Assembly (NCBI GenBank): GCA_017428635.1
Contig: JAFRQK010000004.1
Span: 1-52,835, forward strand
Direction: 5' to 3'
From: Clostridia bacterium
Lineage (GTDB): Bacteria > Bacillota > Clostridia > Oscillospirales > CAG-272
DNA length: 52,835 bases
Below the pieces are notes generated by a model. That model was not told where the DNA came from, did not search any database, and saw nothing but the letters and a program-made list of their open reading frames with translations. Each line of letters begins with the position of its first letter. The stretch's first letter is position 1. The translations under genes and the position numbers were made by a program. This document shows, piece after piece, positions 10,561-44,463 of this stretch.

Positions 10561-13092
10561 TTATGCCGTTACGATACCCGCGGCCTCGGCGAATTCGGGA
10601 AGCTTCGCCGCCTCCTCGCGCATCTTGTATTTGAGTATCTTCCCCGCCGCGTTCATCGGGAAAGAATCGACGAACGTGACGTAGCGCGGCGTCTTGTGCT
10701 TAGCCATATGATCGCGGACGTAGTCCTTGATCTCGTCGGCGGTGCACTCCTCTCCCTCCTTCAAAATCACGCACGCCATGATCTCCTCGCCGTACGCCTT
10801 GTCCGGCACGCCGATGACCTGAACGTCGCTCACTTTAGGGTGGGTATAGATGAAATCCTCTATCTCCTTCGGATAGATGTTCTCGCCTCCGCGGATTATC
10901 ATATCCTTGATGCGGCCGGTAATCTTGTAATAACCGTTTTCGTCACGGCGGGCGAGGTCTCCGGTGTGGAGCCATCCGTCAGGGTCGATCGCGAGAGCCG
11001 TCGCGTGGGGCATCTTGTAATAGCCCTTCATGATGTTGTACCCGCGGGCGACGAATTCGCCGTCGACGCCGTCGGGCAGATCCGCCCCGGTCTCCGGATC
11101 GACGATCTTGCACTCGACGCCGAAGATCGCCGCGCCGACCGTGTTGACGCGGGTCTCAAGGCTGTCCGTCGTCTTCGACATCGTCGTCGCGGGGGACGCC
11201 TCCGTCTGACCGTAAGTGATGCAGATCTCGTCCATGTGCATCTTCTCGACGACCTCTTTCATGACCTTTATCGGGCATGGAGAGCCCGCCATGATGCCGG
11301 TGCGCATGTGGGAGAAATCGGTTTTCTCGAACAGCTCGTGGCCGAGCATCGCGATGAACATCGTCGGCACGCCGTGGAAGGCGGTGATCTTCTCTTTATT
11401 GATGCACTCGAGCCCCTTTCTCGGCGAGAACGCGGGGATCGGGCTCATCGTGGTGCCGTGAGTCATCGAGGCGGTCATCGCGAGGACCATCCCGAAGCAG
11501 TGGAACATCGGGACCTGGATCATCATTCTGTCGGCGGTCGAGAGGTCCATGCAGTCGCCGATCGCCTTTCCGTTATTGACGATATTGTAGTGGGTGAGCA
11601 TGACGCCCTTCGGGAATCCGGTCGTTCCGGACGTGTACTGCATATTGCAGACGTCGTGCTTGTTTATCATCGCCGCGCGGCGGTATACCGATTCGATCGG
11701 CGTTCTGCCCGCCTGCTCCATCGCCTCGTCCCACGTGTAACAGCCCTTCTGCTTCGACTCGCACGTGATGATGTTACGCAGGAAAGGAAGGCGCTTGAGG
11801 TGAAGCGGCTGATGCTCCGGCGCCGTCTCGAGTTCGGGGCAGAGCTCCTTCATTATAGCCACGTAATCGGAGTCCTTATATCCGTCGATCATGACGAGCG
11901 TGTGGGTGTCCGACTGGCGGAGCAGATACTCCGCCTCGTGGATCTTGTAAGCGGTGTTGACCGTGACGAGGACCGCGCCGATCTTGACCGTCGCCCAGAA
12001 GGTGATATACCACTGTGGCACGTTCGTCGCCCAGATCGCCACGTGGTCGCCCTGCTTGACGCCTAGCGAGATCAGGGCGCGGGCGAACGTATCGACGTCG
12101 TCGCGGAATTCGGGATACGTGCGCGTGTAGTCGAGCGTCGTGTATCTGAAAGCGTACTGTTCGGGAAACTCCTCACAGACGCGATCGAGTACCTGCGGGA
12201 AGGTCAGGTCGATCAGATGCTCTTTCTCCCATATATATTTACCGTCGCCGCGGATCGAGGTCTGAAGGCGGCCGCCTCCGGCGGTCTCCTCGATGTAGCG
12301 ACCCATATAATGGACGAAATGCGGGAAGACTACGGCGGCGTCCGACAGATCGGGCGTGTACTGTTTCAGCCACTCGAGGGAGACGTAACCCTCGTAGTTG
12401 ATCGAGCGCAGCGCGCTCATGAAATCGTCGATCGGCAGATCGCCCTCTCCCATCATCCGGTACTTGACCTCGCCGTTCTCCGTCACGGAGTCCTTGACGT
12501 GGGTGTACTTGATGAACGCGCCGAGATTTTGAATAGTCGTCTCCGCGCTCTCCCCCGCGAAACGGAACGGGTGGTGCATATCCCAGAGCGCGCCGACGGC
12601 GTCGCTGCCTATCGCCGCGAGGACGGAGGCGAGGCGGTCGGTGTGGGAATACACGCCGTTCGTCTCGATCAGGAGCGTCACTCCCGCCGCCTCGGCGATC
12701 GGGGCAAGTTCCTTCATAGGCGCGATGACGTACTCGTCGTCGAAATCGGTCGTCACGTCAGCGGTCCTGTCGCCCAGGACTCTGATGTATTTGCATCCGA
12801 CGGCTGCGGCGACCGTTATATATCTTTTCAGTTCGGCGATCGACTCTTCATGATGCTCGGGAAAACGCAGAGCGCACCCGGAGGACAGACAGCTGATCTC
12901 GAGCTTCATCCGCTCGAGAGTCTCCCTCGTTTTCGCGAGGTTCTCGTCGCGGAACGGGCCGGACGAGGCGGAGAACTTCGTCCCTCCGAGCCCTCTCATC
13001 TCGATCCCGCCGAAGCCGAGGTCCTTCGCCATCGACCATATCTCGTCCCACGTGAAGTCGGGCGTGCCGAGCGTTGAAAAAGCGATCTTCAT
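10561..13092 (-). CDS. Fusion of a sugar-isomerase-like TIM barrel and an AMP-forming acyl-CoA ligase
   Basis: An 843-aa protein. Residues 1-275 are an AP-endonuclease/xylose-isomerase-type TIM barrel with likely metal ligands in LLIETNG, ALWDMHH, YTHVKD and SLEW. Residues 290-843 are an ANL-superfamily ligase: P-loop YTSGTTGFPKG (486-496), TYGQTEA, HTGDL and the C-terminal catalytic lysine K818 in AAGKILKYK. The ligase part should convert a carboxylic acid, ATP and CoA into acyl-CoA; the acid is unknown. The start at 13092 has AAAGGAGA 8 bases upstream. The frame runs through both domains without interruption. A T-box leader with a probable Leu specifier precedes it, an unusual regulator for this enzyme class. 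Both domains look catalytically intact. Confidence 0.85.
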   Translation of the reverse strand: MKIAFSTLGTPDFTWDEIWSMAKDLGFGGIEMRGLGGTKFSASSGPFRDENLAKTRETLERMKLEISCLSSGCALRFPEHHEESIAELKRYITVAAAVGCKYIRVLGDRTADVTTDFDDEYVIAPMKELAPIAEAAGVTLLIETNGVYSHTDRLASVLAAIGSDAVGALWDMHHPFRFAGESAETTIQNLGAFIKYTHVKDSVTENGEVKYRMMGEGDLPIDDFMSALRSINYEGYVSLEWLKQYTPDLSDAAVVFPHFVHYMGRYIEETAGGGRLQTSIRGDGKYIWEKEHLIDLTFPQVLDRVCEEFPEQYAFRYTTLDYTRTYPEFRDDVDTFARALISLGVKQGDHVAIWATNVPQWYITFWATVKIGAVLVTVNTAYKIHEAEYLLRQSDTHTLVMIDGYKDSDYVAIMKELCPELETAPEHQPLHLKRLPFLRNIITCESKQKGCYTWDEAMEQAGRTPIESVYRRAAMINKHDVCNMQYTSGTTGFPKGVMLTHYNIVNNGKAIGDCMDLSTADRMMIQVPMFHCFGMVLAMTASMTHGTTMSPIPAFSPRKGLECINKEKITAFHGVPTMFIAMLGHELFEKTDFSHMRTGIMAGSPCPIKVMKEVVEKMHMDEICITYGQTEASPATTMSKTTDSLETRVNTVGAAIFGVECKIVDPETGADLPDGVDGEFVARGYNIMKGYYKMPHATALAIDPDGWLHTGDLARRDENGYYKITGRIKDMIIRGGENIYPKEIEDFIYTHPKVSDVQVIGVPDKAYGEEIMACVILKEGEECTADEIKDYVRDHMAKHKTPRYVTFVDSFPMNAAGKILKYKMREEAAKLPEFAEAAGIVTA

Positions 13093-13125
13093 TTTTGTAA
13101 TCTCCTTTCGCGAAGCGGCGGCGGG

Positions 13126-13404
13126 GAACAAAAAAACCCCCGTCTCATCCAAGAGACGAAGGTAAACTCCGCGGTACCACTCCCGTTGACGCCGAAAGGC
13201 GCCCTCTTTTAAGGCACTTCCATGCCCTGCCCCTGATAACGGCGGGCGTCCCGTCCGGCGATACTCGATCTCTCTCGAGATCTTTCCCGCGGCTGCTCGG
13301 GGGTGAGACGGATACCGCGCCGCCCTCTGCCTTGCACCGACCGGCAGCTCTCTGTTGGCGTCGGGAGTATCTTATTCCCCGTCATAGCATTTCGCGATTT
13401 GACG
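13126..13404 (-). promoter_or_regulatory. T-box riboswitch leader, probable Leu (CUC) specifier
   Basis: Reading leftward it has Stem I with AGAGAG (13353-13348) and an apical GGTCGGTGCAA loop, a specifier loop, the T-box AGTGGTACCGCGG (13181-13169) and a terminator (13158-13130). The base of Stem I reads TGAC-GGGG on one side and CCCC-CGAG on the other, matching TGAC-GAAG and CTTC-CGAG in the leader at 41886-42158. The triplet followed by A just before that helix is CTC (13307-13305), a leucine codon. The TGGT of the T-box would pair with an ACCA tRNA end. Uncharged tRNA should allow read-through into the ligase fusion. The specifier is an inference from alignment. Confidence 0.88.
13130..13158 (-). 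terminator. T-box attenuator terminator (Leu-type leader)
   Basis: CGTCTC (13158-13153) pairs with GAGACG (13146-13141), followed by GGGGTTTTTTT. The 5' side is part of the region that would be sequestered by the antiterminator. The CGTCTC/GAGACG stem is identical in the second T-box. Confidence 0.9.
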
Positions 13405-13410
13405 TAGGAT

Positions 13411-13439
13411 ATGGTATCACATCATTTTCGCCGTGTCAA
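13411..13439 (-). promoter_or_regulatory. Sigma-A promoter of the Leu-type T-box transcript
   Basis: TTGACA (13439-13434) and TACCAT (13416-13411) with a 17-bp spacer. It is divergent from the promoter at 13477-13505. Confidence 0.75.
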
Positions 13440-13476
13440 GAGCAAAAACGAAAAAAATACGCCTTTTGGGTTTTTA

Positions 13477-13505
13477 TTGCAAACGTCCCGAAACTGTGTT
13501 ATACT
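13477..13505 (+). promoter_or_regulatory. Promoter of the HExxH membrane protein gene
   Basis: TTGCAA (13477-13482) and TATACT (13500-13505), 17-bp spacer. The whole segment 13441-13530 is a diverged copy of the tRNA-Trp promoter segment 14525-14615. Confidence 0.75.
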
Positions 13506-13552
13506 TTTGATATATTCTCAAAAAGGAATATTTTTGTGTGAGGTGAATCAAC

Positions 13553-14691: not shown

Positions 14692-15060
14692 AATGGAAAA
14701 GGACCCATCCGGGTCCTTTTCCATTCAGCGAGACTTCGTCTCGGACTCAGTGAAAAATCCCTGCGGGATTTTTCCGGCGTGTTGCGGACAGTATCTTACA
14801 CACCCGCTCAACGAACGCGCAACACGGGGTTCGAGTCCTGTTCGAAATGAAGCATTCTTCATCAGGAGCGCCCGCAGGCTTTTTCCGCCGCGTTGCTTTC
14901 TTACGCATTCGGTTTCTCCCCGGGTATCGAGCGTAAAAAACCCGCAAGGGTTTTTCGGCGCTTTGCTCGCAAAGCGAGAGTTCGAGTCGCAAGATGCGGT
15001 GTCTTTATCAGGAGCACTTTCCGGCGCTCCTCTTTTCGTCGTTCCCGATAAAAAAACGGC
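14691..15060 (+). repeat. Hairpin-rich tail of tRNA-Trp with tRNA-like fragments
   Basis: No gene is supported here although a frame stays open into the next CDS. It starts with GAATGGAAAAGGACCC-ATCC and its complement (14691-14726), a likely tRNA terminator. Further hairpins are CGAGAC-TTC-GTCTCG (near 14730), GAAAAATCCC-TGC-GGGATTTTTC (14752-14774), AAAAACCC-GCAA-GGGTTTTT (near 14936-14957) and CGCTTTG-CTCG-CAAAGCG (near 14961). Two pieces, GGGGTTCGAGTCCTG near 14826 and GAGAGTTCGAGTCGC near 14977, look like tRNA T-arms without the rest of a tRNA. The region looks like a mosaic of small duplicated elements. Confidence 0.65.
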
Positions 15061-15157
15061 GCTTTTCAGCCGTCAGATTCTTGCGTTTTCCGTTCTACTT
15101 TGTTATTATATAATCAAGAATATATCCAATCTCTCAATGCAAGGGGGGTACCGGAAA

Positions 15158-18100
15158 ATGAAAATAAGAAGACTTATCGCTTCCGTACTCGCGGCGCTGA
15201 TGTGCATCGGCACGCTGCCCGCCGCGGTGTTCGCGGAAGGAAGTTACGTCGTTTCTTATCTGGATGAGGAAGGAAACGTCACGTATCCCACCGTCTACAC
15301 TTATATTGACCGGGACAGCGTATCGCTGAACTTCGGCTGGTACGTCGTCGACGGATACGTGCAGGTGGATGAACGCATAGAGGTCAACGACGTTGTGAAC
15401 CTCATTCTCCTTGACGGCGCGACTCTCGACGCGAAGCAGGGCGTCAGCGTGCCCGAAGGGGCGGGACTGACCGTCTGGGCTCAGCAGGGCGGCACCGGCG
15501 TTCTCAACGCAAAGGCGGGAGAACTGCCCGGCATCGCCGGCATCGGAGGAAACGAATGCGGAGCCGCGGGTTCCGTCACTATAAACGGCGGTAACGTCAC
15601 CGCGATCGGCGGCGAGAACGCCGCCGGCATCGGCGGAGGCCTTTCCGGCGCGGGCGGCGCGGTCGTCATAAACGCAGGCACCGTCACGGCGAGCGCGGGA
15701 AGTTTCGCGCTTGCGATAGGCAACGGTTTCGACGAGGCGTACTGGTTCGGAGAATCCGACGAGCAGCTCGACCCCGGCACCGTGACCATAGCGACCGGCC
15801 TCGCGGCCTCGTACGGAGACGGTACGGACGAGATGACCCCGGCGGACGAGTCCGTCACACCGGACGCCAGAGAATACGCCTGCACCTTCCCCAAGGTGAA
15901 GATCGAACCGTGTCCCGAGCACGATATGACCGCTCTCGGGATACCGAACGACGACGGGCTGACACACACTTGCATCTGCCGCCGGTGTCTTGAACCGGGC
16001 GACAGCGAAAACCACGTCTACAGTTTCTATGAACTCGTCGACGACAACACGCACGTTTCCTACTGCGATAAATGCTACGAACAGTCGCCTCTCTCTGAGC
16101 ACGTTTACGTAAACCACGTGTGCGAATGCGGCGCCGTTCAGCCCGCCTTCTCCGTTACGTTCAACGCGAACGGCGGCAAGGGGACGATGGATCCTCAGAC
16201 CGTTTACGACGGTGAGGAGACGGCGCTCGATGCGAATATATTCACCCGCCGCGGTTACTCCTTTGCCGGATGGACAACTGAGGAGTCGGGAGGCGGGACC
16301 GGTTACGCCGACAAAGCGAAGGTCACGCTTGCGGCAAACCTCGAGCTCTTCGCTCAGTGGACCCCGACCCCGCTCGTTCCTGATGAGATCGAATCCGTGA
16401 CTTTCGACGGCACGGATCTGACCCCGGATATCACCGTCAGGTCGGCGGACGAGGTCCTGACGGCGGGCGAGGACTATACCGTCGGCATAACGAAGGACGG
16501 CGAGCCCGTCGACGCGGTCGTCGACGCGGGAGATTACCTCATAACGGTAAACGGCGCTGGCGACTTCAAAGACGCCGCGCCGGCGACGGTCACCTTTACC
16601 GTCGAGCCGAAACAGATCACGGTCAAGGCGGAGAGCCGCGAGTTCACGTACGACGGCACGGCGCAGTCCTGTCCCGAATACACGGTAGAGGGACTCGTCG
16701 GAGACGACGCGATCTCGGCGACAGTCTCCGGCTCGGTCACGTTCCCGGGCGACACCGCGGAAAACAAGATCGAAGAATACGAATTCACCTCCGGCACGCC
16801 CGGCAACTATTCCGTCTCGACCGAAAGCGGCGAGCTGACGATGACAGCTGCGAGCGCAGCGATCACGATCACGGCTGGAAGCGGCTCGTGGACGTACGAC
16901 GGATCAGCGCATACGAATAATGAAGTCACCGTCACGGACGGCGAACTCTTCGAAGGCGACCGGCTCGTAGCGGAGACGACGGGAAGCGTCAAGAACGTCG
17001 CCGACACGGAGGACGGCAACAACGGGATAACTCCCGGATACAAGATCATGCACGGCGACGTCGACGTCACCGAAAACTACGTTATTACCCCCGCCGCCGG
17101 AACGCTGACGGTCACCGCTCTGTCGGGCGTCGAGGTAACGATCACCGGTCACAACGCCAAGGCCGTCTACGACGGCGCGCAGCACACGGTCACCGGATAC
17201 GACGTGGGGATCAGCGACCCGCTCTACACGGCGGACGACTTCACGTTCAACGGAAGATCGACGGCGAAGCGTACGAACGCCGGAACGACTCAAATGGGCC
17301 TCGGGGAGGATCAGTTTACAAACAGGAATACGAACTTCGAGGGCGTGAAGTTCAAAATCACCGACGGATATATGACGGTCGAACCGAAACCGGTCACCGT
17401 CACGGCAAAGAGCTTTGAGTTCACGTATAACGGCGAGGCGCAGACCTGTCCCGAATACACGGTCGAGGGTCTCGTCGGAGACGACGCGATCGAGGCGACC
17501 GTGTCGGGCTCGATCACGTTCCCCGGCGAAGGTCCCGTGGAGAACAAGGTCACCGGATACAAGTTCACCTCCGGCACGCCCGGAAACTACTCCGTCACGA
17601 CCGAGGACGGCGAGCTGACGATGATTAACGCGAGCGCCGCGATCACGATCACGGCGGGCAGCGGCTCGTGGACGTACGACGGGACGGAGCATACGAACGG
17701 CGAGGTCACCGTCACGGAAGGCGAACTCTTCGACGGCGACGTGCTCGTCGCGGAGGCGGCGGGCAGCGTCACGAACGTCGCCGACACGGAGGACGGCAAC
17801 AACGGGATAACTCCCGGATACAAGATCATGCACGGCGACGTTGACGTCACCGACAACTACGTCATCACCCCCGCCGCCGGCACGCTGACGGTCGAACCGA
17901 AATACGTGACCGTCAAAGCGGACAACGTATTCAAGACGGTCGGGGCCGACGATCCTGCGTTCACGGCGACGGTCACCGGCCTCGTGAACGAGGGCGACAA
18001 GATCGAATTCTCCTATTTCCGCGAGGACGGAGACGACGTCGGTGTTTATACCGTCACCCCGGACGGAGAGTCCTTACAGGGCAACTACAGGGTCGCTTAC

Positions 18101-20692
18101 GAGACCGGCACTCTGACGATCAGAAAACTGTGCGCGGACGGCCACACGCTCGTGCTGACCGAGGCGGCGGTGCCCACCTGCACGGAACCCGGCAACCGCG
18201 CGTACTACACCTGTACGGTCTGCGGAGGGTATTTCGCGGAAGACGGCGAGACCGAGATCGCTCCTGACAGCTGGGTCATCCCCGCGGCAGGCCACAAACC
18301 GGGCGCCGCGGTAAAAGAGAACGAGCATCCCGCCACCTGCACGGCGGACGGCAGCTACGACACGGTCGTTTACTGCACCGCCGGCGGCGACGAGATCTCG
18401 CGAGAGACGACGGCCATCCCCGCGACGGGTCACAGCTACGGAGCGCCCGATTGGGAATGGGAAACCGACTACAGCGCGGCGTCGGCGAAGTTCACCTGCT
18501 CGAAGTGCGGCGACGTAAAAGTCCTGAACGCCGATATAACGTCCGAGACCACGAATCCCACCTGCACGGTGGACGGCAAGACCGTCTATAACGCGAAGGT
18601 GACGCTCGGCGAAGACGATTACAGATCGACGAGGACCAAGATCCTGACCGCGCCGGGTCACAAACCGGGCGATCCGGTCAAAGAGAACGAGACCGCGCCG
18701 AAATGCGAGGAGACCGGCAGTTACGACGAGGTGATATACTGCACCGCCTGCGAGGAGGAGCTGTCGCGCGAGACCGTAACGGTCCCCGCGAAGGGCCACG
18801 CATGGGGCGACTGGGTCGAGACCGCGCCCGCGACCTGCGAGGAGGCGGGTGAAGAAAAGCGCGTCTGCGGAAACGATCCGACTCACGTCGAGACGCAGCC
18901 GATCCCCGCGAAGGGTCACAGATGGGGAGACTGGATCGTCACCACCGAGCCGACGGAAGATGAAGAAGGCGTGGAAACGCGTTACTGTCAGAACGATCCC
19001 ACCCACTTCGAAACGAGGCCGGTCCCCACGCTCAGTCACGTGCATAACGTGAGCCGCGTCGGCGCGAACGCTCCGACGTGTACGGAACCCGGAAATTCCG
19101 AATACTACGTCTGCGAAAACTGCGGCAGATTGTTCACCGACCCCGCGGGCGAGCATGAGATCTCCCTTGAAGACACGGTCATCCCCGCCGCGGGCCACAA
19201 CCTGAAGATAACGGAAGCGCACGATCCGACCTGTACGACGGCCGGAAATTCCGAATACTACGTCTGCGACAGATGCGGCAGATTCTTCTCCGACGACGCG
19301 GGACAGCAGCCGATCGACGAGAACAGCTGGGTCATCCCCGCGAAGGGGCACAATTACGTAGAACACGTGACAAGACCCGCTACGTGTACAGAAGACGGCT
19401 TAATGACGTACGTCTGTATGAACGATCCTACCCACACCTATAATGAGACGATCCCCGCGACGGGTCACTTGCTCATTCCGACGAACGCCGTCGCTCCCAC
19501 GTGCACGGAGCCCGGCAACTCGGCGTACTATACGTGCGAACACTGCGGCGCGTACTTCTCGGACGAAGCCGCAACCTACGGGATCCAGGAGAACAGCTGG
19601 ATCATACCCGCCGCGGGCCACAGATGGGGCGACTGGATCGTGAACACCGAACCCACGGAGGAAGCGGAAGGTTCCGAGATACGGACCTGCACCGTCTGCG
19701 GCGCCGTTGAGACCCGGAGCATCCCGGTACTGGGTCACGAACATTCCCTGATCCTCACCGAAGCCGTTCCCGCCACCTGCACCGAACCCGGCAATATTCA
19801 ATACTACGTCTGCACCGGCTGCGCAAGATATTTCACCGACGTGGCGGCAGAGCATGAGATCAACCTCGAGGACACCGTCGCCCCGGCGCTCGGCCACAAC
19901 TGGGGCATGTGGTTCACCGTGAGGCCGGCTACGGAGTACCATAGCGGTCTGCAGGAGAGGATCTGCCTCAACGACGTTGACCACGTGCAGACTCACGTGA
20001 TCCCGCAGCTGCCGCACACCGACTGCCCGTGCGCTGAGTTCGCCGACGTCAGCGTAGACGACTGGTACCACGAGGATCTGGACTTTGTTATCGCAGACGC
20101 ATTCATGATGGGCGTCACGCCGTGGTCCCCGATTCCCGACAAAGGCGGCGCGGCGACACGCGCCGCGGCGCCGTCCTCCGCCCTAATGTTTCTCCCCGAA
20201 AGCAATATGACCCGCGCCATGGCGGTGGTCGTGCTGTGGAGGGTCGAGGGCAAGCCCGACGCTGTGCGCTCCGCATTCAAAGACGTCAAAGCGGGAAGCT
20301 GGTATGAGGCGGCCGTCAACTGGGCAGCGTCCTGCGGTATCGTCCTCGGAGTATCCGCCGACAGGTTCGACCCGAACGCCCCGATCACGAGAGAACAGTC
20401 TGCGGCTATTTTCTACCGGTACGCAAAATACAAAGGCGTCGACGTCAGCGTCAGCACGTCGCTCGATCGGTTCGTTGACGCGGGCAAAGTCGCCTCCTGG
20501 GCGCGCGACGCGCTCGCGTGGATGAGCGAGACACAGATCGTCATCGGAGTCGGCGGAGATCGGCTGGCTCCGAAAGATGCGACTCTGAGATGTCAGTTCG
20601 CCGCCATGACCCACCGCTTCTGCGTAGGGATCCTCGGCATGCCGGACGTCGGCGAGATCAAGCATCTCGACGAGAACTGGACCGAGGACTGA
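15158..20692 (+). CDS. 1844-aa secreted SLH-domain surface protein with MBG and Cys-rich repeats
   Basis: A signal peptide (residues 1-26, ending PAAVFA) is followed by a Gly-rich beta-helix-like part (GIGG and INGG repeats, about 100-190), an InlB/Flg_new-type repeat (VTFNANGGKGTMD, about 331-410), MBG-like domains (about 485-915) with a 260-residue internal duplication, about a dozen Cys-containing repeats (about 990-1625) and three SLH domains (about 1628-1844) that should anchor it to the cell wall. The Cys repeats follow the pattern PTCTEPGN..YY.C..CG....IPA.GH. The first SLH domain has an insertion. The start at 15158 is chosen for the signal peptide and the AAGGGGGG site upstream; a TATAAT lies at 15109-15114. 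Probably a cell-surface adhesin or scaffold. Confidence 0.85.
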   Translation: MKIRRLIASVLAALMCIGTLPAAVFAEGSYVVSYLDEEGNVTYPTVYTYIDRDSVSLNFGWYVVDGYVQVDERIEVNDVVNLILLDGATLDAKQGVSVPEGAGLTVWAQQGGTGVLNAKAGELPGIAGIGGNECGAAGSVTINGGNVTAIGGENAAGIGGGLSGAGGAVVINAGTVTASAGSFALAIGNGFDEAYWFGESDEQLDPGTVTIATGLAASYGDGTDEMTPADESVTPDAREYACTFPKVKIEPCPEHDMTALGIPNDDGLTHTCICRRCLEPGDSENHVYSFYELVDDNTHVSYCDKCYEQSPLSEHVYVNHVCECGAVQPAFSVTFNANGGKGTMDPQTVYDGEETALDANIFTRRGYSFAGWTTEESGGGTGYADKAKVTLAANLELFAQWTPTPLVPDEIESVTFDGTDLTPDITVRSADEVLTAGEDYTVGITKDGEPVDAVVDAGDYLITVNGAGDFKDAAPATVTFTVEPKQITVKAESREFTYDGTAQSCPEYTVEGLVGDDAISATVSGSVTFPGDTAENKIEEYEFTSGTPGNYSVSTESGELTMTAASAAITITAGSGSWTYDGSAHTNNEVTVTDGELFEGDRLVAETTGSVKNVADTEDGNNGITPGYKIMHGDVDVTENYVITPAAGTLTVTALSGVEVTITGHNAKAVYDGAQHTVTGYDVGISDPLYTADDFTFNGRSTAKRTNAGTTQMGLGEDQFTNRNTNFEGVKFKITDGYMTVEPKPVTVTAKSFEFTYNGEAQTCPEYTVEGLVGDDAIEATVSGSITFPGEGPVENKVTGYKFTSGTPGNYSVTTEDGELTMINASAAITITAGSGSWTYDGTEHTNGEVTVTEGELFDGDVLVAEAAGSVTNVADTEDGNNGITPGYKIMHGDVDVTDNYVITPAAGTLTVEPKYVTVKADNVFKTVGADDPAFTATVTGLVNEGDKIEFSYFREDGDDVGVYTVTPDGESLQGNYRVAYETGTLTIRKLCADGHTLVLTEAAVPTCTEPGNRAYYTCTVCGGYFAEDGETEIAPDSWVIPAAGHKPGAAVKENEHPATCTADGSYDTVVYCTAGGDEISRETTAIPATGHSYGAPDWEWETDYSAASAKFTCSKCGDVKVLNADITSETTNPTCTVDGKTVYNAKVTLGEDDYRSTRTKILTAPGHKPGDPVKENETAPKCEETGSYDEVIYCTACEEELSRETVTVPAKGHAWGDWVETAPATCEEAGEEKRVCGNDPTHVETQPIPAKGHRWGDWIVTTEPTEDEEGVETRYCQNDPTHFETRPVPTLSHVHNVSRVGANAPTCTEPGNSEYYVCENCGRLFTDPAGEHEISLEDTVIPAAGHNLKITEAHDPTCTTAGNSEYYVCDRCGRFFSDDAGQQPIDENSWVIPAKGHNYVEHVTRPATCTEDGLMTYVCMNDPTHTYNETIPATGHLLIPTNAVAPTCTEPGNSAYYTCEHCGAYFSDEAATYGIQENSWIIPAAGHRWGDWIVNTEPTEEAEGSEIRTCTVCGAVETRSIPVLGHEHSLILTEAVPATCTEPGNIQYYVCTGCARYFTDVAAEHEINLEDTVAPALGHNWGMWFTVRPATEYHSGLQERICLNDVDHVQTHVIPQLPHTDCPCAEFADVSVDDWYHEDLDFVIADAFMMGVTPWSPIPDKGGAATRAAAPSSALMFLPESNMTRAMAVVVLWRVEGKPDAVRSAFKDVKAGSWYEAAVNWAASCGIVLGVSADRFDPNAPITREQSAAIFYRYAKYKGVDVSVSTSLDRFVDAGKVASWARDALAWMSETQIVIGVGGDRLAPKDATLRCQFAAMTHRFCVGILGMPDVGEIKHLDENWTED
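16621..17895 (+). repeat. 780-bp (260-aa) internal tandem duplication within the SLH protein gene
   Basis: The segments around 16621-17118 and 17395-17895 repeat at an exact offset of 780 bp where checked (GGACGGCAACAACGGGATAA at 17011 and 17791). Both encode an MBG-like pair with FTYDG/FTYNG, GSWTYDG and TEDGNNGITPGYKIM. Low divergence points to a fairly recent copy or to ongoing gene conversion. Confidence 0.85.
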
Positions 20693-28200: not shown

Positions 28201-31200
28201 AATATCGTGCTTTCCGTTCTCCCTGTCGAAGGAGCGTATTCGTTCATCCCGTCCGAAGGTGAGGCGATCCTCTCGGAAGACGGGATCCCGTTCGCGCCCG
28301 GCGCCGATCTGTCCGTGTCCGGGACGATCGGGGTCAAGGGTCTCGGCGACGGTTTCGTTTACCTCAACGTCGTGAACGCCGAGGACGGTACCGTCCCGTC
28401 GTTCGACGTCGATTTTGAGATCGTAAAAAACGGCCGCTACGCGCGAACGACCTGGTACCACAGGACCGGGCAACTCGATCTGCTCGATCTTGAACCCGGC
28501 GATGAATGTACGCTGAAAGCGGTCGGATCCCCCGACATGGGTCTGGTCGGAGATCCCGTGGAGTTCCGCGTTCCCGAAAGAGGAACGGGACCCGAAGGAC
28601 TGCCGACCGTAACGTTCATGCGTTCGGTACGCATAGAACTCGACGTGATGCTCTACACCGACGAGCTCGGGACCGGCGCGACCGCGTATGAGCGCGGGAT
28701 CACCGCCGACTTCGACGTGTACTATACGGACCGCGTCACCGGCGAGTGGACGCGAGTCGACGGTTACGTCGTGAGATCTGCGGACGAATCGCTGTACGGT
28801 AAAAAAGGATTCTCCCTGAATTTCACGTCGGACGACGTGGCCTTCCCGAACGTCGATACGGACAAAGGACTCAAACTCGTCTTCGGAACCGAAGCCCGCG
28901 CGACGGGGATGTCGCAGCTTGAAACGATGCGCGATTACCCGTACGAGGGCGAGCGGATAAACCTCGTTTCGGGTCAGACGTTCTACACCGTTCCGTGCGA
29001 TGAAAACGGTGGGATCGAGGCGCGGGGACTGTCCTCTCAGCTCAGGATCACCGGAAACGGCAAGGGAAGCGCCGTCTGGACGGTCAGCGCGATCGAAGAG
29101 GGCGACGGTGCCGTCGTTCCCGCCGAGATCAAGGGTCTGCGCGTCGCGGACACGCCGCGCGTCGAACTGCGCACCGGACGCGCCGTCAGGGGCGACTTTG
29201 TTACCTACGTGTTCAGAAACACGGCGAACGGCTCGCTTCTCAGTCAGTCGTTCGAACTTCCGTACAGAAACGACGGGGCGATCCTGTCGCATATCATAGA
29301 CGGTCTTACCTACGGGGAATACGATATGCTCATGTACGTGGGCACGGGCGACGCGCAGGCGCAGCTTGAAAGACAGTTCGCGTCGGGAGGCGCCGTTTCG
29401 GTGCCCGCTGCGGTCTGCGGAGCCGTCGTCCGCGGCGCGACGCTGACGGAAACCGACGCCGCCGTGCGGCTCGATCTGCCCGCGGAACCCGTAACGAACG
29501 CCCCGGGCATCGGATCGATCACGGTAACGCCCGACAAGGACGCCGCGGTCGCGGGCGAAAGAGTGACGTTCGCCGTTCACCTCGCATGCGTCCCGGGCGG
29601 AACTCTCACGGAAAGAACGCTCGACTTCAACACGTCCGGAAGCCGCTTTGAGATCGACTCGGTCAGCTCGTCACTGCGCGACGGGTCAGGCAGGATCGTC
29701 ACTCCGACGGTAAACGGCACGGATAATCTGATCGTTCCCGAGACCTCGTCCGTCGTCTCCGGCGTCGTGATGGTGTCGGGCAAAGTATCGGCAGCGGGCT
29801 CCGGTATCTCCGCTCATCTCGACGCGGAACGCGGAGCGGTCGATCATTCAAAATACAATTACTGCCGCGGCGTCTGCACGGTCGAGGAGTTCACGTTCTC
29901 TGTCAGAGCGACGACGCTGAGACCCACGGCCGCCGCGTCCGGGCGCGGCGCCGGCAACCGCGACATAACGGCGACGGTCACGTCCGAGACCGATCCCGGC
30001 AGGACCTCGACGCAGACGATCCCCGTCTCCAGATACGGGTACTGGAAAGCGATGATCGAATATCCGACGAACGGGCAGTCCGATACGTTCACGGTAACGT
30101 TCCGCGATTCCGACGGAGTCGTTCTCGGCGAGGGAAGGACCGAATACGTGTCCTCCGGCGTCGTGCCGTCGTGCGTCAGGATCGCATGGATCTTCAACGA
30201 AAAGAGATGCGAGCTGACCGGATTTCCGGACGAGACGGGATCGTTCCCCGCGCTCGACTCCGGTATCCTCACGTTCGACTCCGGCTTCAACCGGACGGGC
30301 GTCTGCGTTGAGATCGAATTCGACGACGAAAACGAGGACGCGTACGGTCTGACCGATGCGAGAAGAGTTCGCGACCCGTATCTGACGGTCACCCCGGAGA
30401 ACGGCAGGTTCTCGTTCGAATACGACTTTTTCGCGCTCGATAAGGAAACTTTCGATCTTTCGATCCCGGAGCTCGGGATCGACGAGAAGGACGTTCCGTA
30501 CGCCACGCGGTACTACACGGTATATAACGCGGCGAACTTCGGCGCGATGTCGATAGACTACGATCTTACCCCCGTTTACGAGCCGGCGACCCGCGACGAC
30601 GGAGCCGCGTCGTTCGGCGGTACCGCGGCACAGGACGCCGAGTTCCGCGAGTTCGGCCGCGCAGTCTCCGCAATGGAAGAGCCGTACGTCGGGGTCGGCA
30701 CGCTCGAGTGCGATTTCGCGGAATTCAACTTCGAGGGCCTTTACCTCAGCGATATCGAGGATGCATACGATCCTCTGACCGATGAAGACGTGCCCGTCAT
30801 CCTGCCCTACTCGGGCGAGGCGCACTTCTCGATCGAAAACGAGATCGAGATCAAACCGGTCGCGCCGTCGGGTACGGCTGAGGCGATCGCAGAACTCTCT
30901 GAAAACGGCGGTTCGCTCTCGCGCTCGTTCGGCGGCGGCAGCTTCATCAAATACGCGGGAGCCGACGAAAAAGCGTACGTCGTCTTGGGTGAAGACGGTA
31001 CCTCCGATCTCGTTCTCGAGACAACGTGGTCGATGCTCGTCGACGTATCGGCGATCCCCGACGGCGCCTCGTCAAGCTCTCCCGTACTCCGTGCGGTCCG
31101 CGCCGCGGCAACGCGCGCGGGAGGCGGCGACGGAGGTATATTCAGCGTCAGCCAGAGCACGAAGGAGACGGTCGGGGGCGTTATGCTCGACATAGCGACC

Positions 31201-33267
31201 AACGCACCGGAGAAACTCATCGACTCGGGCCGTCTTCTCGCGAAAAACGCCGAAGCCGCAAAGTTTGCGAAGGGCTTTGCCGAGGGATTCGGTAACGTGC
31301 TCAACGTCGCCTCCGTCGGAATGACCGCGGCGCTCGAACGCAAAGAGGACAAACAGGCAGAGTCGGCGATGGAAAAACTCATCGCCGAACTCAAGGGCAA
31401 TCTCGACAAGTCGCTCGCTTATTACAACTCGAAACTGACCTGCTACAAGGGAGGCGCGGGAGCCGTTCAGTCCTCTCTCGCAACAATAAGAAAGATGGCG
31501 GACTTCGACTTCGCCGAGATCCTCTCGAACAGCAAGATCAGCAACAAGGCGCTGTCGGGGTTCAATATCGCCGTCTCCGCGACGGGTTTCATTCCGATCC
31601 CGTTCGCAGGGACGGTCATAGGCGCGATCAACGATAAGAACAAAGATCTCGCAAGAGACAATCAGAAGTTCTTCGACGACACCGCCGCATGGCAGGCGTA
31701 TTACAAAGCCGAGACGGCGATGAGAAAAGCGTACGGAAAATACGATCCCGACGCGTGCGAAGAACAAAAACCCGATCCGGTCGACCTGACCGACTGGCTC
31801 AAGGAGAGATCGAAGAACTATTCGCTCGTCGACCCCCCGGCTCCGGTCAAGATCAGATCGAAGAGGATCATCGACCCGTCCGGTACGGTTTACGAGGGAC
31901 TGCTCTCGAATCCTCTCGCGGGCGTCACCGTCTCGATCGAGTATCTCGAAGGCGGCGAATGGAAACTCTGGGAAGAGGCGCCCGACTACAACGATCAGCT
32001 CCCTGAGTACGTCACGGACGCGAGCGGTTTCTACCGCTGGGACGTTCCGGACGGCACGTGGCGCGTCAAATACTTCAAAGAGGGCTACAACGGGAACGAA
32101 GCCGTATACTCGGATGAGATGGACGTTCCGCCCGTGTGGCTCGACGTCAATCAAAACATGATAAGCGCCGATCCGTTCGAGCTGACTTCCGTGCTTACGG
32201 AGACCGGACTGCGTCTTGAATTCTCGAAACCGGTCAAGGCTTCGGATATCGAGGCCGGACTGATTACGCTCGAGTGCGACGGGCAGACGCTCGACGGCGT
32301 CTCCTTCGTTCCGCTCGGAATCGAAGAAGGTCTGACGATGGCGGCGGAGGCGGAAGTACCGCTCGACAGAAATTCATCGTACAGGGTGCGCGTCAACGGA
32401 GTCGCGACGTACGCGGGAACCGTCTGCGCGTTCTTCTGCGACGTCGACGTAACGGCTGCGCCCGAGCGCCTCGTTTGCGCGGCGGTCGCGGCAAGCGTTG
32501 AGGACGGAAGCCGCGTGCCATACGGTACGAAGATCGCGCTGACCTGCGCGACCGAGGGCGTCCGGATCTACTATACGCTCGACGGAACGTGTCCGTGCGA
32601 CGACGAGAGCACGTCAAGGGTGCTTTACACGGAACCGATCACCGTCACCGGGGACACGACGCTGAGAGTTTACGCCGTCCGCGCCGGATATCAGGATTCG
32701 GCGGTCAGGACGTACTCGTTCCTCTGCGACGCGCCCGCCCCGTCGTTCACCGACGTTTCCGAAAACGCGTACTACGCAGCTCCCGTCGCGTGGGCGGTCG
32801 CGAACAGCATAACGAACGGCACGAGCGCGACGAAATTCTCGCCCGACAAAGGATGTACGCGCGGTCAGGTCGTCACTTTCCTGTGGCGCGCGGTGGGGTG
32901 TCCGGAACCCGAGGGATCCGATAATCCTTTCCGCGACGTGGACGCAAAGGACTACTTCTACAAAGCGGTACTGTGGGCGGTCGAAAACGGCATCACCAAA
33001 GGAACGGGCGCAAACACGTTCTCTCCGGGCCAGACTTGCACGAGAGGACAGATCGTCACGTTCCTGTGGCGCGCGTCCGGTTCGCCGTCCGCGGGCTCGG
33101 CGGCCAATCCGTTCGTCGACGTGAGATCCGGAGACTACTTCCGCGACGCCGTTCTCTGGGCGGTCGGGAAAGGTATCACACTCGGTACGGACAAGACTCA
33201 CTTCTCGCCGAAAAGCACGTGCACCAGAGGTCAGGTCGTGACCTTCCTTTACAGAGCGAAAAACTGA
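25213..33267 (+). CDS. 2684-aa secreted SLH-domain surface protein
   Basis: A signal peptide (1-28, ending ATVFA) and a Gly/Ser linker (about 98-113) precede an acidic, Tyr-rich region. A fibronectin type III-like domain begins near 649 (TPTGFSATAENNTVTFSWD). A long beta-rich region follows, with a helical stretch around 2000-2180 (AEAAKFAKGFAEGFGNVLNV), a carboxypeptidase-regulatory-like fold (about 2218-2298), a chitobiase C-terminal-like domain (about 2420-2505) and three SLH domains (2510-2684: FTDVSENAYY, FRDVDAKDYF, FVDVRSGDYF). GGAGG lies 6 bases before the ATG. The SLH domains should bind secondary cell-wall polymer, making it an S-layer-type surface protein. No catalytic motif was recognised. 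Confidence 0.87.
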   Translation: MKYFKKLVSAALILSMLAALVPATVFAAGGRWSVSYDADAYGEGTLSVVLFDAGADATVATEWTDTGSSIRAGATADELFRRGADYYAVVSYTPSESGGSGSSGSGGSGGSSGLTDEQIEAEFDLYYAAVYGKEPPTLGIPDEGAAAEELFSWYEALLEENAFWVWNDDEEEGAWLDKLSVEEIQATVNDWYDPDWDDYDEIARECVGEYVDAYLYYCSGYFSYDIYTKRAIIEEYILHPEYAPPGYTPPSAPGGGSGGDEPSDTDKTWRTVLRRLSGSDLTSGFTVGANFFDACSPLEVTPVYAGLSYDQTTGAQVERYSDVRAYFIADGYTIPALPEREEPDDEEEYELGGDPEELGSDIGTFGNPCGTLPANSPLYVSQGEMLVTTASDACSEIINGIDADPFVDWEKVTVGQSGASVDFTSGRRFVTLTAGEDGLGDDYTVSLTVYLTGGELGSAAVSAQAVCYDFDMTDYSMSYVTRPLKVKPGSYGKTRLVVAGGDLYESKIMFWEKEIGAIRSAVSLTVPSRSLGADAYTSELVFTSLETGEQGPFSEGETVRGDLLLTVGDYRLVGIAHVSEESVTLMTTEAVWGDGGAVTDAGTVPYFTFQAPSASKEMTATASFGEDSPDGFTASATATIPVGGAVAETPTGFSATAENNTVTFSWDPLSFDGLAGFNIYRTDADGRNRVPVATAAKNATGVSVSIDRASWGQSPWYFTLTAAAGERESSDAGPVRVNDPLAPFRGVGSYTLKDASLESGKVTVAEGKTGALALTFTPDADVTADVTSVTATLRYTDISGAAKSTSASLSKAGGFKADLAIPEDAAVLLSVTFTCRIDGTPLTLDTADLGGLLVASVYSLVLPTGDYPLSASFDRAVAKFDRDSYAFSLSEGVLKGEVERDVLAKAKVTFYIGSEPFAMTGALSGLRRDGDSIFVTPSSLPDKLRLTATVDDGASPLSGSAHFKNSPAGEQPVVTAAASADGVSTFYVERTGGSSANIVLSVLPVEGAYSFIPSEGEAILSEDGIPFAPGADLSVSGTIGVKGLGDGFVYLNVVNAEDGTVPSFDVDFEIVKNGRYARTTWYHRTGQLDLLDLEPGDECTLKAVGSPDMGLVGDPVEFRVPERGTGPEGLPTVTFMRSVRIELDVMLYTDELGTGATAYERGITADFDVYYTDRVTGEWTRVDGYVVRSADESLYGKKGFSLNFTSDDVAFPNVDTDKGLKLVFGTEARATGMSQLETMRDYPYEGERINLVSGQTFYTVPCDENGGIEARGLSSQLRITGNGKGSAVWTVSAIEEGDGAVVPAEIKGLRVADTPRVELRTGRAVRGDFVTYVFRNTANGSLLSQSFELPYRNDGAILSHIIDGLTYGEYDMLMYVGTGDAQAQLERQFASGGAVSVPAAVCGAVVRGATLTETDAAVRLDLPAEPVTNAPGIGSITVTPDKDAAVAGERVTFAVHLACVPGGTLTERTLDFNTSGSRFEIDSVSSSLRDGSGRIVTPTVNGTDNLIVPETSSVVSGVVMVSGKVSAAGSGISAHLDAERGAVDHSKYNYCRGVCTVEEFTFSVRATTLRPTAAASGRGAGNRDITATVTSETDPGRTSTQTIPVSRYGYWKAMIEYPTNGQSDTFTVTFRDSDGVVLGEGRTEYVSSGVVPSCVRIAWIFNEKRCELTGFPDETGSFPALDSGILTFDSGFNRTGVCVEIEFDDENEDAYGLTDARRVRDPYLTVTPENGRFSFEYDFFALDKETFDLSIPELGIDEKDVPYATRYYTVYNAANFGAMSIDYDLTPVYEPATRDDGAASFGGTAAQDAEFREFGRAVSAMEEPYVGVGTLECDFAEFNFEGLYLSDIEDAYDPLTDEDVPVILPYSGEAHFSIENEIEIKPVAPSGTAEAIAELSENGGSLSRSFGGGSFIKYAGADEKAYVVLGEDGTSDLVLETTWSMLVDVSAIPDGASSSSPVLRAVRAAATRAGGGDGGIFSVSQSTKETVGGVMLDIATNAPEKLIDSGRLLAKNAEAAKFAKGFAEGFGNVLNVASVGMTAALERKEDKQAESAMEKLIAELKGNLDKSLAYYNSKLTCYKGGAGAVQSSLATIRKMADFDFAEILSNSKISNKALSGFNIAVSATGFIPIPFAGTVIGAINDKNKDLARDNQKFFDDTAAWQAYYKAETAMRKAYGKYDPDACEEQKPDPVDLTDWLKERSKNYSLVDPPAPVKIRSKRIIDPSGTVYEGLLSNPLAGVTVSIEYLEGGEWKLWEEAPDYNDQLPEYVTDASGFYRWDVPDGTWRVKYFKEGYNGNEAVYSDEMDVPPVWLDVNQNMISADPFELTSVLTETGLRLEFSKPVKASDIEAGLITLECDGQTLDGVSFVPLGIEEGLTMAAEAEVPLDRNSSYRVRVNGVATYAGTVCAFFCDVDVTAAPERLVCAAVAASVEDGSRVPYGTKIALTCATEGVRIYYTLDGTCPCDDESTSRVLYTEPITVTGDTTLRVYAVRAGYQDSAVRTYSFLCDAPAPSFTDVSENAYYAAPVAWAVANSITNGTSATKFSPDKGCTRGQVVTFLWRAVGCPEPEGSDNPFRDVDAKDYFYKAVLWAVENGITKGTGANTFSPGQTCTRGQIVTFLWRASGSPSAGSAANPFVDVRSGDYFRDAVLWAVGKGITLGTDKTHFSPKSTCTRGQVVTFLYRAKN

Positions 33268-41198: not shown

Positions 41199-41218
41199 GA
41201 ACCATCGGTTGAGTTGCG

Positions 41219-41767: not shown

Positions 41768-41796
41768 ACTGTCCTCCCGGATCGTCCTTTTTGATA

Positions 41797-41825
41797 ATTT
41801 TAACATACGGACGCGGTTTTTTCAA
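41797..41825 (-). promoter_or_regulatory. Promoter of the uracil-DNA glycosylase gene
   Basis: TTGAAA (41825-41820) and TAAAAT (41802-41797), 17-bp spacer. It is divergent from the T-box promoter at 41850-41879. Confidence 0.75.
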
Positions 41826-41849
41826 CTTATCCTTTTATAAATATAACTG

Positions 41850-41879
41850 TTGACAAACGATCCTTTCGTATGGTAAAAT
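41850..41879 (+). promoter_or_regulatory. Promoter of the Ile-type T-box transcript
   Basis: TTGACA (41850-41855) and TAAAAT (41874-41879), 18-bp spacer. Confidence 0.8.
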
Positions 41880-41885
41880 CGGGAA

Positions 41886-42158
41886 CAGTTGAAAGACTGT
41901 GACGAAGACTGCGCACGACAGGTCCTGTCCCAAGAGAGTCCGCGGCGGTGGAAAGCGGACGGCAAGGCGTCGCGCCGCTATCACTTCCGAGTCGGGAAAG
42001 GAAAGGCCGTCTGCTGCGGCTGAGTAATAGTTCCCCGTTGACCGCGACGTCAGAGCGGAGGGCTTGTCAGAGCCCGCAGAGAGGCGCCGACACCGGCGCA
42101 ATTTGAGTGGTAACGCGGGCGATCGCTCGTCTCAAAGATGAGACGGGCTTATTTTTTT
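41886..42158 (+). promoter_or_regulatory. T-box riboswitch leader, probable Ile (AUC) specifier
   Basis: Stem I base TGAC-GAAG pairs with CTTC-CGAG. The AGAGAG motif follows CCTGTCCCA, and the apical loop is GGCGGTGGAAA. The specifier loop holds ATC followed by A just before the CTTC helix (ATC at 41980-41982), an isoleucine codon. The T-box GAGTGGTAACGCGG lies at 42105-42118 and a terminator at 42125-42158. TGGT would pair with an ACCA tRNA end. It controls the XRE-cupin-ligase fusion 20 bases downstream. The specifier is inferred from alignment with the leader at 13126-13404. Confidence 0.88.
42125..42158 (+). terminator. T-box attenuator terminator (Ile-type leader)
   Basis: GCTCGTCTC (42125-42133) pairs with GAGACGGGC (42140-42148) around AAAGAT, followed by TTATTTTTTT. 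Confidence 0.9.
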
Positions 42159-42177
42159 CCACTCCAAGGAGGAAAAA

Positions 42178-44463
42178 ATGGAAAACATTCTGAAAGACGT
42201 AGCTTCGAGGATCAGGACCCTGCGCGAGATCCGAGAGATCTCGCCGGAGGAAATGGCGACCGCGACCGGTACGACGGTTGAGGCGTACCGCGCCCTTGAG
42301 GAGGGAAACACCGACTTCTCCTTCACTTTCATTTACAAGTGCGCCGCCCGGCTCGGCGTCGAGACGGTCGACCTGCTCGCCGGCGAGAGCGCGACGCTGA
42401 ACGCGTACTGCGTCAACAGAGCGGGGACCGGTCTGCCTATCGCCCGCCGTCAGGGCTTTTCATACAACAATATCGCTCCGCTCTTCCGCGGAAAGATCGC
42501 CGAGCCGTTCGTCGTCAAGGCGCCGTGGATCCCCGAGGAAGCCGATCTTCCGATCAAACTCGCTCACCACGAGGGGCAGGAGTTCGACTACGTCCTTAAG
42601 GGAACGCTCAAGGTCTCCGTCGACGGAAGGATCGAGATCCTCGGTGAGGGCGACTCGATCTACTACGACTCTTCCCTGCCGCACGGCATGATCGCGTGGG
42701 GCGAAGACTGCGAATTTCTCGCCGTTACGATCTCCTCGGGCGGAGCGGCTTACGACTACCCGGACGAGTTGACGGAGAAACCGACCGTCAGAGAAAAAGT
42801 CGTCATCCCCGATCTTCCCGACAATCCGGTCGCGCTCCGGTATATCTCCGTTAAAGAGGACAACGGGTTCCCCGTCGGGATAGAATTCAAGAACTGTGAA
42901 AACTATAATTTCGCGTACGACACCGTCGACGCGATCGCCGAAAAGACGCCCGACAAGCTCGCGATGGTCCACCTCGACGCGGACAAGAACGAGACGCGGT
43001 TCACTTTCGGCGATATGAAGCGCCTTTCGAATAAAGCCGCGAACTACTTCACCTCGCTCGGCATCCGCCGCGGCGATACCGTCATGGTCGTGCTCAAACG
43101 CCACTGGCAGTTCTGGGTATCGTTCCTCGCACTGCACAAGATCGGCGCGATCCCGATCCCCGCGACGAACATGCTCGTCGAAAAGGATTTCGACTACCGT
43201 TTCAGAGCGACCGACACCCGGGCGATCCTCTGCACGGCGGACGGCGATACGGCGCACCAGGCGGAACTCGGCGCGCGCGACGCAGGTCTCGGAGATATGA
43301 TAAAAGTATCCGCCCACGGCCACGTCGACGGATGGCACGATTTCGACCGTGAGTTCGAGTCGTTCCCCGACGTATTCGAGCGCGTCCCGGGCGTCGGCGG
43401 AAACGAGACGATGTTCATGCTTTTCACTTCCGGCACGACCGGATATCCGAAAGTTGCGGCGCACGCGTTCACGTACGCGCTCGGCCACTATCTCACCGCG
43501 CGTTACTGGCACGTCGTCGAGCCGGGCGGACTTCACCTTACGATCTCCGATACCGGCTGGGGCAAGGCGTTGTGGGGCAAACTCTACGGCCAGTGGCTCT
43601 GCGAGGGAGCGATCTTCGTCTACGACTTCGACAGATTCCACGCGGAGGATATCCTGCCACTCTTCAAAAAATACAATATCACGACGTTCTGCGCGCCGCC
43701 CACGATGTACCGCTTCTTCATAAAAGAGGATCTGTCAAAGTACGATCTGTCCACCCTGAAGCATACGACGATAGCGGGCGAGGCGCTCAACCCGGAAGTC
43801 TACTACAAGTGGTACGAGCACACCGGTCTGCGTCTGATGGAAGGATTCGGTCAGACTGAAACGACGCTGGTTATCGCGAACTACGCGGGCGAGATCCCGA
43901 AACCGGGCTCGATGGGTCATCCGTCCCCTCAGTACAAGGTCGACATCCTCCTGCCCGACGGCAAGCGCGCCGAAGCGGGTCAGACGGGCGAGATCGTCAT
44001 CGACATCAAAGACGGCAAACCGTTCGGTCTCGTGAAAGAGTACTTCCGCAATAAAGAGGCGACCGACGAGGTAATGAGAGACGGGTACTACCACACCGGC
44101 GACACCGCGTACCGCGACGAGGACGGAAACTTCTGGTACGTCGGCAGAGTCGACGATCTGATCAAATCGTCCGGTTACCGCATCGGTCCGTTCGAGATCG
44201 AGTCGGTCATCATGGAACTTCCGTACGTCCTCGAATGCGCCGTCACCGGCGTGCCCGATCCGCTCCGCGGTCAGCTCGTCAAAGCGTCCGTCGTTCTCGT
44301 CAAGGGCAAAGAGGGCTCGGAAGAACTCAAAAAAGAGATCCAGAATTACGTCAAGGAGCACACCGCGCCGTACAAATATCCCCGTATCGTGGAATTTCTT
44401 TCTGAGATGCCGAAGACGATAAGCGGAAAGATCCGCCGCGTCGAGCTGCGCGGAAGACAGTAA
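42178..44463 (+). CDS. Fusion of XRE regulator, cupin and AMP-forming acyl-CoA ligase
   Basis: A 761-aa protein. Residues 1-65 form an XRE helix-turn-helix (TLREIREISPEEMATATGTT). A cupin domain follows (about 115-185: KLAHHEGQEFDYVLKG, LPHGMIAW). From about 230 it is an ANL-family ligase: P-loop TSGTTGYPK (417-425), GFGQTET, YHTGDTAYRDEDG, and the catalytic lysine K751 in TISGKIRR. The enzyme part resembles medium- or short-chain acyl-CoA synthetases. The first 190 residues look like a complete XRE-cupin regulator fused in frame. AAGGAGG lies 5 bases before the ATG. It is preceded by a T-box leader with a probable Ile specifier. The substrate is unknown. Confidence 0.85.
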   Translation: MENILKDVASRIRTLREIREISPEEMATATGTTVEAYRALEEGNTDFSFTFIYKCAARLGVETVDLLAGESATLNAYCVNRAGTGLPIARRQGFSYNNIAPLFRGKIAEPFVVKAPWIPEEADLPIKLAHHEGQEFDYVLKGTLKVSVDGRIEILGEGDSIYYDSSLPHGMIAWGEDCEFLAVTISSGGAAYDYPDELTEKPTVREKVVIPDLPDNPVALRYISVKEDNGFPVGIEFKNCENYNFAYDTVDAIAEKTPDKLAMVHLDADKNETRFTFGDMKRLSNKAANYFTSLGIRRGDTVMVVLKRHWQFWVSFLALHKIGAIPIPATNMLVEKDFDYRFRATDTRAILCTADGDTAHQAELGARDAGLGDMIKVSAHGHVDGWHDFDREFESFPDVFERVPGVGGNETMFMLFTSGTTGYPKVAAHAFTYALGHYLTARYWHVVEPGGLHLTISDTGWGKALWGKLYGQWLCEGAIFVYDFDRFHAEDILPLFKKYNITTFCAPPTMYRFFIKEDLSKYDLSTLKHTTIAGEALNPEVYYKWYEHTGLRLMEGFGQTETTLVIANYAGEIPKPGSMGHPSPQYKVDILLPDGKRAEAGQTGEIVIDIKDGKPFGLVKEYFRNKEATDEVMRDGYYHTGDTAYRDEDGNFWYVGRVDDLIKSSGYRIGPFEIESVIMELPYVLECAVTGVPDPLRGQLVKASVVLVKGKEGSEELKKEIQNYVKEHTAPYKYPRIVEFLSEMPKTISGKIRRVELRGRQ

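Follow-up and report, generated by a model that had tools for sequence, protein, structure and literature searches.

Acyl-CoA ligases behind T-boxes with branched-chain amino acid specifiers in a Clostridia bacterium: a candidate branched-acid salvage regulon

Why should acyl-CoA ligase genes stand behind T-box leaders that read codons for leucine and isoleucine? The question is raised by a 52,835-nucleotide stretch of DNA (the window), which is contig C26 of a 2.27-Mb draft genome (G000; 96.19% complete, 3.08% contamination) of a Clostridia bacterium. According to a regulon survey, T-boxes usually control synthetases, then biosynthesis, then transport (PMC3766115), and branched-chain biosynthesis is a known T-box target in Firmicutes (Wels et al. 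2008, PMC2494555). The leaders described here belong to the same RNA class as the branched-chain T-boxes of Firmicutes, but what they precede is not a synthetase, a transporter or a classical biosynthesis gene: each stands before an acyl-CoA ligase gene, and neither IlvC nor IlvD has a match in the genome. The term acyl-CoA is absent from the main text of both PMC3766115 and PMC2494555, and the literature searched, which did not take in two T-box surveys, contained no prior report of T-box-controlled acyl-CoA ligases.

Two leaders and two ligase fusions in the window

The first-pass annotation of the window described two AMP-forming ligase fusions, each behind a T-box leader. Domain searches agree with the first description, one protein being a TIM barrel joined to a ligase and the other an HTH-cupin unit joined to a ligase, and a covariance search with RF00230 recovered a T-box before each (E 1.2e-20 and 2e-13). 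The features of the Leu locus are as follows.

13411..13439 (-): promoter-like site TTGACA-17-TACCAT upstream of the Leu leader (consensus match only)
13149..13394 (-): Leu T-box leader (RF00230), 91.6 bits, E 1.2e-20
13307-13305 (-): Leu specifier CTC, then A (Rfam alignment and specifier rule)
13171..13180 (-): T-box core GTGGTACCGC of the Leu leader (motif)
13130..13158 (-): Leu leader terminator, CGTCTC/GAGACG stem and T run (stem, fold, scan)
10561..13092 (-): Leu-type ligase, 843 aa; xylose-isomerase-like TIM barrel (PF01261), AMP-binding and AMP-binding_C

The Ile locus is on the other strand.

41850..41879 (+): promoter-like site TTGACA-18-TAAAAT upstream of the Ile leader (consensus match only)
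41890..42137 (+): Ile T-box leader (RF00230), 63.3 bits, E 2e-13
41980-41982 (+): Ile specifier ATC, then A (Rfam alignment and specifier rule)
42107..42117 (+): T-box core GTGGTAACGCG of the Ile leader (motif)
42128..42157 (+): Ile leader terminator, CGTCTC/GAGACG stem and T run (stem, fold, scan)
42178..44463 (+): Ile-type ligase, 761 aa; HTH (XRE-like), Cupin_2, AMP-binding and AMP-binding_C

Both leader scores lie below the Rfam gathering score for RF00230 (93 bits), which is a search threshold and not an anatomical feature, so that a default Rfam scan misses the two leaders and a permissive scan detects them. The anatomy expected of a T-box is present: a Stem I with an AGAGA motif and a specifier loop, a UGGN core, and alternative antiterminator and terminator structures. 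The CGTCTC/GAGACG stem, which the first-pass annotation had found to be identical in the two leaders, is indeed shared by them and also by the Val leader described below, and it forms the terminator. When the Ile and Val leaders were folded, the 5' half of this stem was found to pair in the antiterminator as well; in the short Leu piece that was folded, the antiterminator pairing appears only in part. Promoter-like matches numbered 3 for the Leu leader (0.2 in shuffles) and 2 for the Ile leader (0.1 in shuffles), and terminator-like matches 2 (vs 0.7) and 1 (vs 0.6), respectively.

Specifier codons were read with a rule anchored in Stem I, where the codon is followed by one base, a four-base helix strand and then GAG, and where the four-base strand is required to pair with its 5' partner. 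Elsewhere in the genome, the control readings were UGG before a TrpB-like gene, UUC before pheS and GUC before valS. Applied to the window leaders, the rule gave CUC (Leu) and AUC (Ile), the usual specifiers for these amino acids (TBDB, PMC7778990). The initial assignment of CTC and ATC, each followed by A, therefore stands, and the leaders of most relatives specify the same amino acids.

Membership of the AMP-binding family (PF00501 and PF13193) was established, with both domains above the curated cut-off and the SGTTGxPK motif present. The C-terminal lysine motif is present in the Ile ligase and, with the pattern used, was not found in the Leu ligase. An OAH sulfhydrylase gene (44541-45821) follows the Ile ligase and was considered as a conserved partner. 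Within the flanks examined it adjoins an Ile-type ligase in 2 of 80 named loci, in one of them at 44% identity, and it is therefore not counted as part. The window also encodes two very large proteins with S-layer homology domains (14693-20692 and 25213-33267 (+)).

A third ligase and the candidate pathway genes of the genome

An RF00230 search of G000 (E up to 0.001) found six T-boxes, three upstream of pheS, valS and the TrpB-like gene and three upstream of acyl-CoA ligases. The third ligase, of the kind that the first-pass annotation had thought worth seeking, lies on contig C44 and had gone unseen because it is outside the window. It has cupin and ligase domains, is 57% identical to the Ile-type ligase and stands behind a T-box that reads GUC (Val). 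Each branched-chain amino acid thus has its own T-box ligase, and the salvage system is larger than first proposed, with valine included. Between the Val T-box terminator and the ligase start lie about 280 bases that look repeat-like by eye (L010:2380-2650).

These counts bear upon one rival explanation, in which there is nothing special about the T-boxes and their targets are fatty acyl-CoA ligases of general function that acquired a starvation signal. The AMP-binding family is broad, and the genome has ten PF00501 matches, as this explanation would have it. Of these ten, however, only three are preceded by a T-box (six T-boxes were found in all), and each of the three has a different branched-chain specifier; moreover, the pairing of T-box and ligase recurs in relatives, where Val-type and Ile-type proteins separate with their codons. 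We regard this explanation as highly improbable.

The Trp T-box (UGG) is a separate observation. It lies upstream of a TrpB-like enzyme (676.3 bits, cut-off 366; G000 C41, L007:10831-12300 (-)), an arrangement for which indole salvage is a possible role.

Classical branched-chain biosynthesis appears to be incomplete. IlvC and IlvD had no match in G000 (96% complete), and each was present in 14 of 14 control genomes. LeuC was judged by match size, as no match in any of the 20 genomes passed the family cut-off; by this measure it is lacking in G000 and in 11 of the 13 other ligase genomes tested and present in all six comparison genomes. The single place in G000 that matches LeuC encodes a 642-aa protein that scores as an aconitase. 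G000 retains CimA and a canonical LeuA (628.8 bits, cut-off 598.7), which the salvage reading leaves unexplained if the classical route is gone.

The genes expected for the alternative route were found. A 2-oxoacid:ferredoxin oxidoreductase, which the first-pass annotation had named as a necessary partner, is represented by three POR-domain matches, among them a VorBAC operon and IorAB; VorB scores 549.6 bits against a curated cut-off of 399 (NF005507). One class IV aminotransferase passes the branched-chain cut-off (409.2 bits, equivalog cut-off 250.05, TIGR01123). VorBAC is on another contig than the window ligases, and the pathway parts are scattered in this genome. Directly upstream of VorB is a gene for a P-loop NTPase-like protein of about 220 aa (L025:4620-5171 (+)), which has the same position in several relatives' clusters (for example L167:10050-10739 (-)), with 48% identity between the G000 protein and those of relatives. 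Beside IorAB are genes for a PaaK-type ligase and one more acyl-CoA ligase (G000 C11, L024:2454-7764 (-)), an arrangement that might be expected for the formation of aromatic amino acids from aryl acetates.

Leaders, gene order and IlvC in relatives

The leaders of related ligases were read in samples of named loci. For the Ile type, 80 named loci were used, the best 80 of at least 538 from the Ile/Val alignment, which by title are largely from gut Clostridia, many of them from ruminants. AUC is among the readings before 72 of these 80 ligases and is the sole reading in 65; six other loci were unread (three cut by contig ends) and two were without the motif (one at a contig end). Locus L099 has no leader upstream of its ligase. 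The best 30 Val-type and best 30 Leu-type loci each include the G000 locus. Of the 30 Val-type loci, 28 gave a Val codon (GUA 25, GUC 3), ten of them alongside other readings; of the remaining two, one is cut and one was read otherwise. CUC is among the readings in 21 of the 30 Leu-type loci, five with other readings too. The AGAGAG motif is present in 24 of these loci and the T-box core, as searched, in 18; three gave no reading or a different one, and six of the ligases had no visible leader. With a stricter motif, 28 of the 48 Leu-type rows lacked a core within 650 bases of the ligase, which is partly explained by a LeuA-like gene that stands between. Three loci (L125, L129 and L131) have a Stem I with CUC upstream of the ligase but the usual T-box core was not seen, and their leaders are either decayed or of another type.

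How these readings depend on the rule deserves comment. A first version that needed A or G after the codon was abandoned, since 19 of the 76 leaders with the motif gave no reading under it and five more were read as other codons. In most of 21 leaders inspected by eye, AUC is followed by C, and the rule on that base was loosened for this reason. A later automatic chooser departed from AUC in 4 of the 81 leaders that had no Val reading (some of the four lie before Val-type ligases) and from CUC in 2 of 18 Leu-type leaders. Its Val group (21 leaders: GUA 19, GUC 1, GUG 1) is defined by the codon itself and is thus no independent test. The bases that flank the codon vary in Ile and Leu leaders. 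In Val leaders they are nearly invariant (U before the codon in 19 of 21, G after it in 20 of 21), so the flanks do not fix the frame, and the Val frame rests on the anchor and the valS control.

Two further analyses support the assignments. Rfam found a T-box in all 12 loci submitted (nine Leu-type and three Val-type, chosen as likely positives and with the named Ile-type loci left out), and five of the 12 reach the gathering score. In a quick tree of 124 ligases, labelled Ile if AUC was among the readings and Val only without AUC, the 30 Val-labelled rows fall in one 33-row branch (SH-aLRT 100), in which the other three rows are unread and none is labelled Ile.

Many of the 295 genomes of the order have Ile-, Val- and Leu-type ligases close together. 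Ten such clusters (L166-L175) were chosen by ligase closeness alone. A T-box reading AUC was found before a cupin ligase in all ten and one reading GUA in nine; a CUC T-box was read in six. Some leaders gave other readings as well. VOR subunit genes are present in nine of the ten clusters (VorB of L167, 546.8 bits, cut-off 399), and three of nine neighbour proteins checked by Pfam, from three clusters, are class IV aminotransferases; the one tested further (L173) scored 396.1 bits, above the TIGR01123 cut-off of 250.05. Genes for all three steps of the proposed pathway (ligase, oxidoreductase and aminotransferase) can therefore lie near one another. Within the flanks examined, VOR genes adjoin none of the 80 named Ile-type loci.

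A LeuA-like gene precedes the Leu-type ligase in the ten clusters (in L167 at 5710-7098 (-)), and it stands behind the Leu T-box where a CUC T-box was read (six of ten). We considered whether it encodes a working isopropylmalate synthase and rejected this possibility: the RDGxQ and HxH motifs, which we take to be the catalytic motifs of LeuA, are both gone in ten of ten copies. One copy was tested for the LeuA_dimer domain and retains it, and the protein is perhaps a leucine sensor.

The same gene bears on a different account of the Leu branch, in which isobutyrate gives 2-ketoisovalerate, LeuA and downstream enzymes then make leucine, and the TIM-barrel ligase uses another acid. Consistent with this account, G000 keeps canonical LeuA and CimA, the Leu-type ligase is nearest to a curated model other than the one that best matches its two counterparts, its TIM barrel has no assigned role, and the LeuA-like gene precedes the ligase in relatives' clusters. 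It is countered by the loss of both motifs from every cluster copy of the LeuA-like protein and by the lack of LeuC, by match size, in G000 and most of the other ligase genomes tested. On balance, we consider this account unlikely and favor isovalerate as the acid of the Leu ligase.

Loss of IlvC goes with the ligases across the order. IlvC is missing from 117 of 156 genomes with a Leu-type match vs 36 of 139 without, and from 96 of 129 genomes with a cupin ligase vs 57 of 166 without, comparisons whose P values overstate independence because the genomes are related drafts. The proportion is 37 of 40 in genomes with two or more cupin ligases. When only full Leu-type fusions, selected by hand, were counted and a cupin ligase had to be present as well, IlvC was missing from 80 of 96 genomes vs 73 of 199. 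Among genomes at least 90% complete, a hand count (error about three, from rounding of listed values) found IlvC in about 30 of 104 with a Leu-type match vs about 100 of 122 without. In a set of 50 named ligase genomes, whose completeness is not given, 42 lack IlvC and eight keep it; Neglectibacter timonensis SN17 (L102, genome G335) is one carrier with no IlvC match.

Substrates, control and the proposed pathway

Clues to the substrates come from characterized relatives. The solved structure closest to the Ile ligase is 3ETC (641.6 bits; the next scores 339.3), which is MacsMa of Methanosarcina acetivorans, an enzyme that prefers 2-methylbutyrate (PMC10455477). MacsMa is the nearest solved structure over the ligase part of the Ile ligase; it differs in being archaeal, and the match excludes the HTH-cupin part. 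We know of no T-box for MacsMa. Among curated models, the best match of the Ile and Val ligases is MbcS (NF047394; 422.4 and 419.7 bits), again over the ligase part only, with the HTH-cupin part outside. These scores are half of the equivalog cut-off of 850, and the two ligases are therefore not filed as MbcS. MbcS is described as activating 2-methylbutyrate and isobutyrate, and isovalerate poorly (PMC10026030). The Leu ligase has a different best curated model, and the poor activity of MbcS on isovalerate would fit a separate enzyme type for leucine. By analogy with these relatives, alpha-branched acids for the Ile and Val ligases and isovalerate for the Leu ligase would fit.

In Staphylococcus aureus, the role of MbcS is in membrane lipid synthesis (PMC10026030), which suggests a further explanation: the ligases could supply branched acyl-CoA primers for fatty acid synthesis, so that free acids spare scarce amino acids in lipids. 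The idea is favored by MbcS being the closest curated model for two of the ligases, but primer supply alone does not explain VOR genes in nine of ten clusters, the aminotransferase genes or the missing IlvC and IlvD. We judge it quite unlikely as the main role.

Amino acid synthesis from the same acids has a precedent in physiology. Allison and co-workers reportedly described, in 1962 and 1966, how rumen anaerobes form amino acids from branched acids by reductive carboxylation. As cited in PMC7356843, rumen anaerobes including ruminococci make leucine from isovalerate, isoleucine from 2-methylbutyrate and valine from isobutyrate, and branched volatile fatty acids are growth factors for rumen bacteria. 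That work, as cited there, is physiology, and what is proposed here is candidate genes, a gene order and RNA control.

Taken together, the specifiers, the oxidoreductases, the absence of IlvC and IlvD matches, and the VOR genes in nine of ten clusters support the branched-acid salvage first suggested for the window. Two of the outcomes that the first-pass annotation named as refuting it, specifiers for other codons and a genome with no 2-oxoacid oxidoreductase, were checked, and neither was observed. We consider it likely that the three ligases belong to a T-box regulon that makes leucine, isoleucine and valine from isovalerate, 2-methylbutyrate and isobutyrate, an account in which we infer which acids are used, that VOR works reductively and that uncharged tRNA is the inducer. 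In the proposed pathway, uncharged tRNA-Leu, tRNA-Ile or tRNA-Val would cause its own T-box to allow read-through into one acyl-CoA ligase, which would form the CoA ester of the matching acid (isovalerate, 2-methylbutyrate or isobutyrate). A VOR-type ferredoxin oxidoreductase would then carry out reductive carboxylation of the CoA ester to the 2-oxoacid, and a branched-chain aminotransferase would convert the 2-oxoacid to leucine, isoleucine or valine. VOR enzymes can run oxidatively as well. The RNA class is known, the target class is apparently new and the pathway is coherent, and genome context gives the interpretation good support.

A broader version can be offered tentatively. Gut Clostridia that have lost the classical pathway could commonly have a complete branched-chain regulon based on reductive carboxylation of environmental acids, in which every ligase has its own T-box while VOR and the aminotransferase are common to all three acids. 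In some relatives it could also include a LeuA that is catalytically dead but retains its regulatory domain, and this protein may sense leucine for the isovalerate ligase.

The proposed regulon provides candidate genes for the branched-acid activation step and a control mechanism for the growth-factor physiology of the rumen. It would add acyl-CoA ligases to the targets of T-boxes and would help substrate assignment in a large ligase family. The T-box specifier before a ligase is a test that can be made on sequence, and it may predict which acid a species can use.
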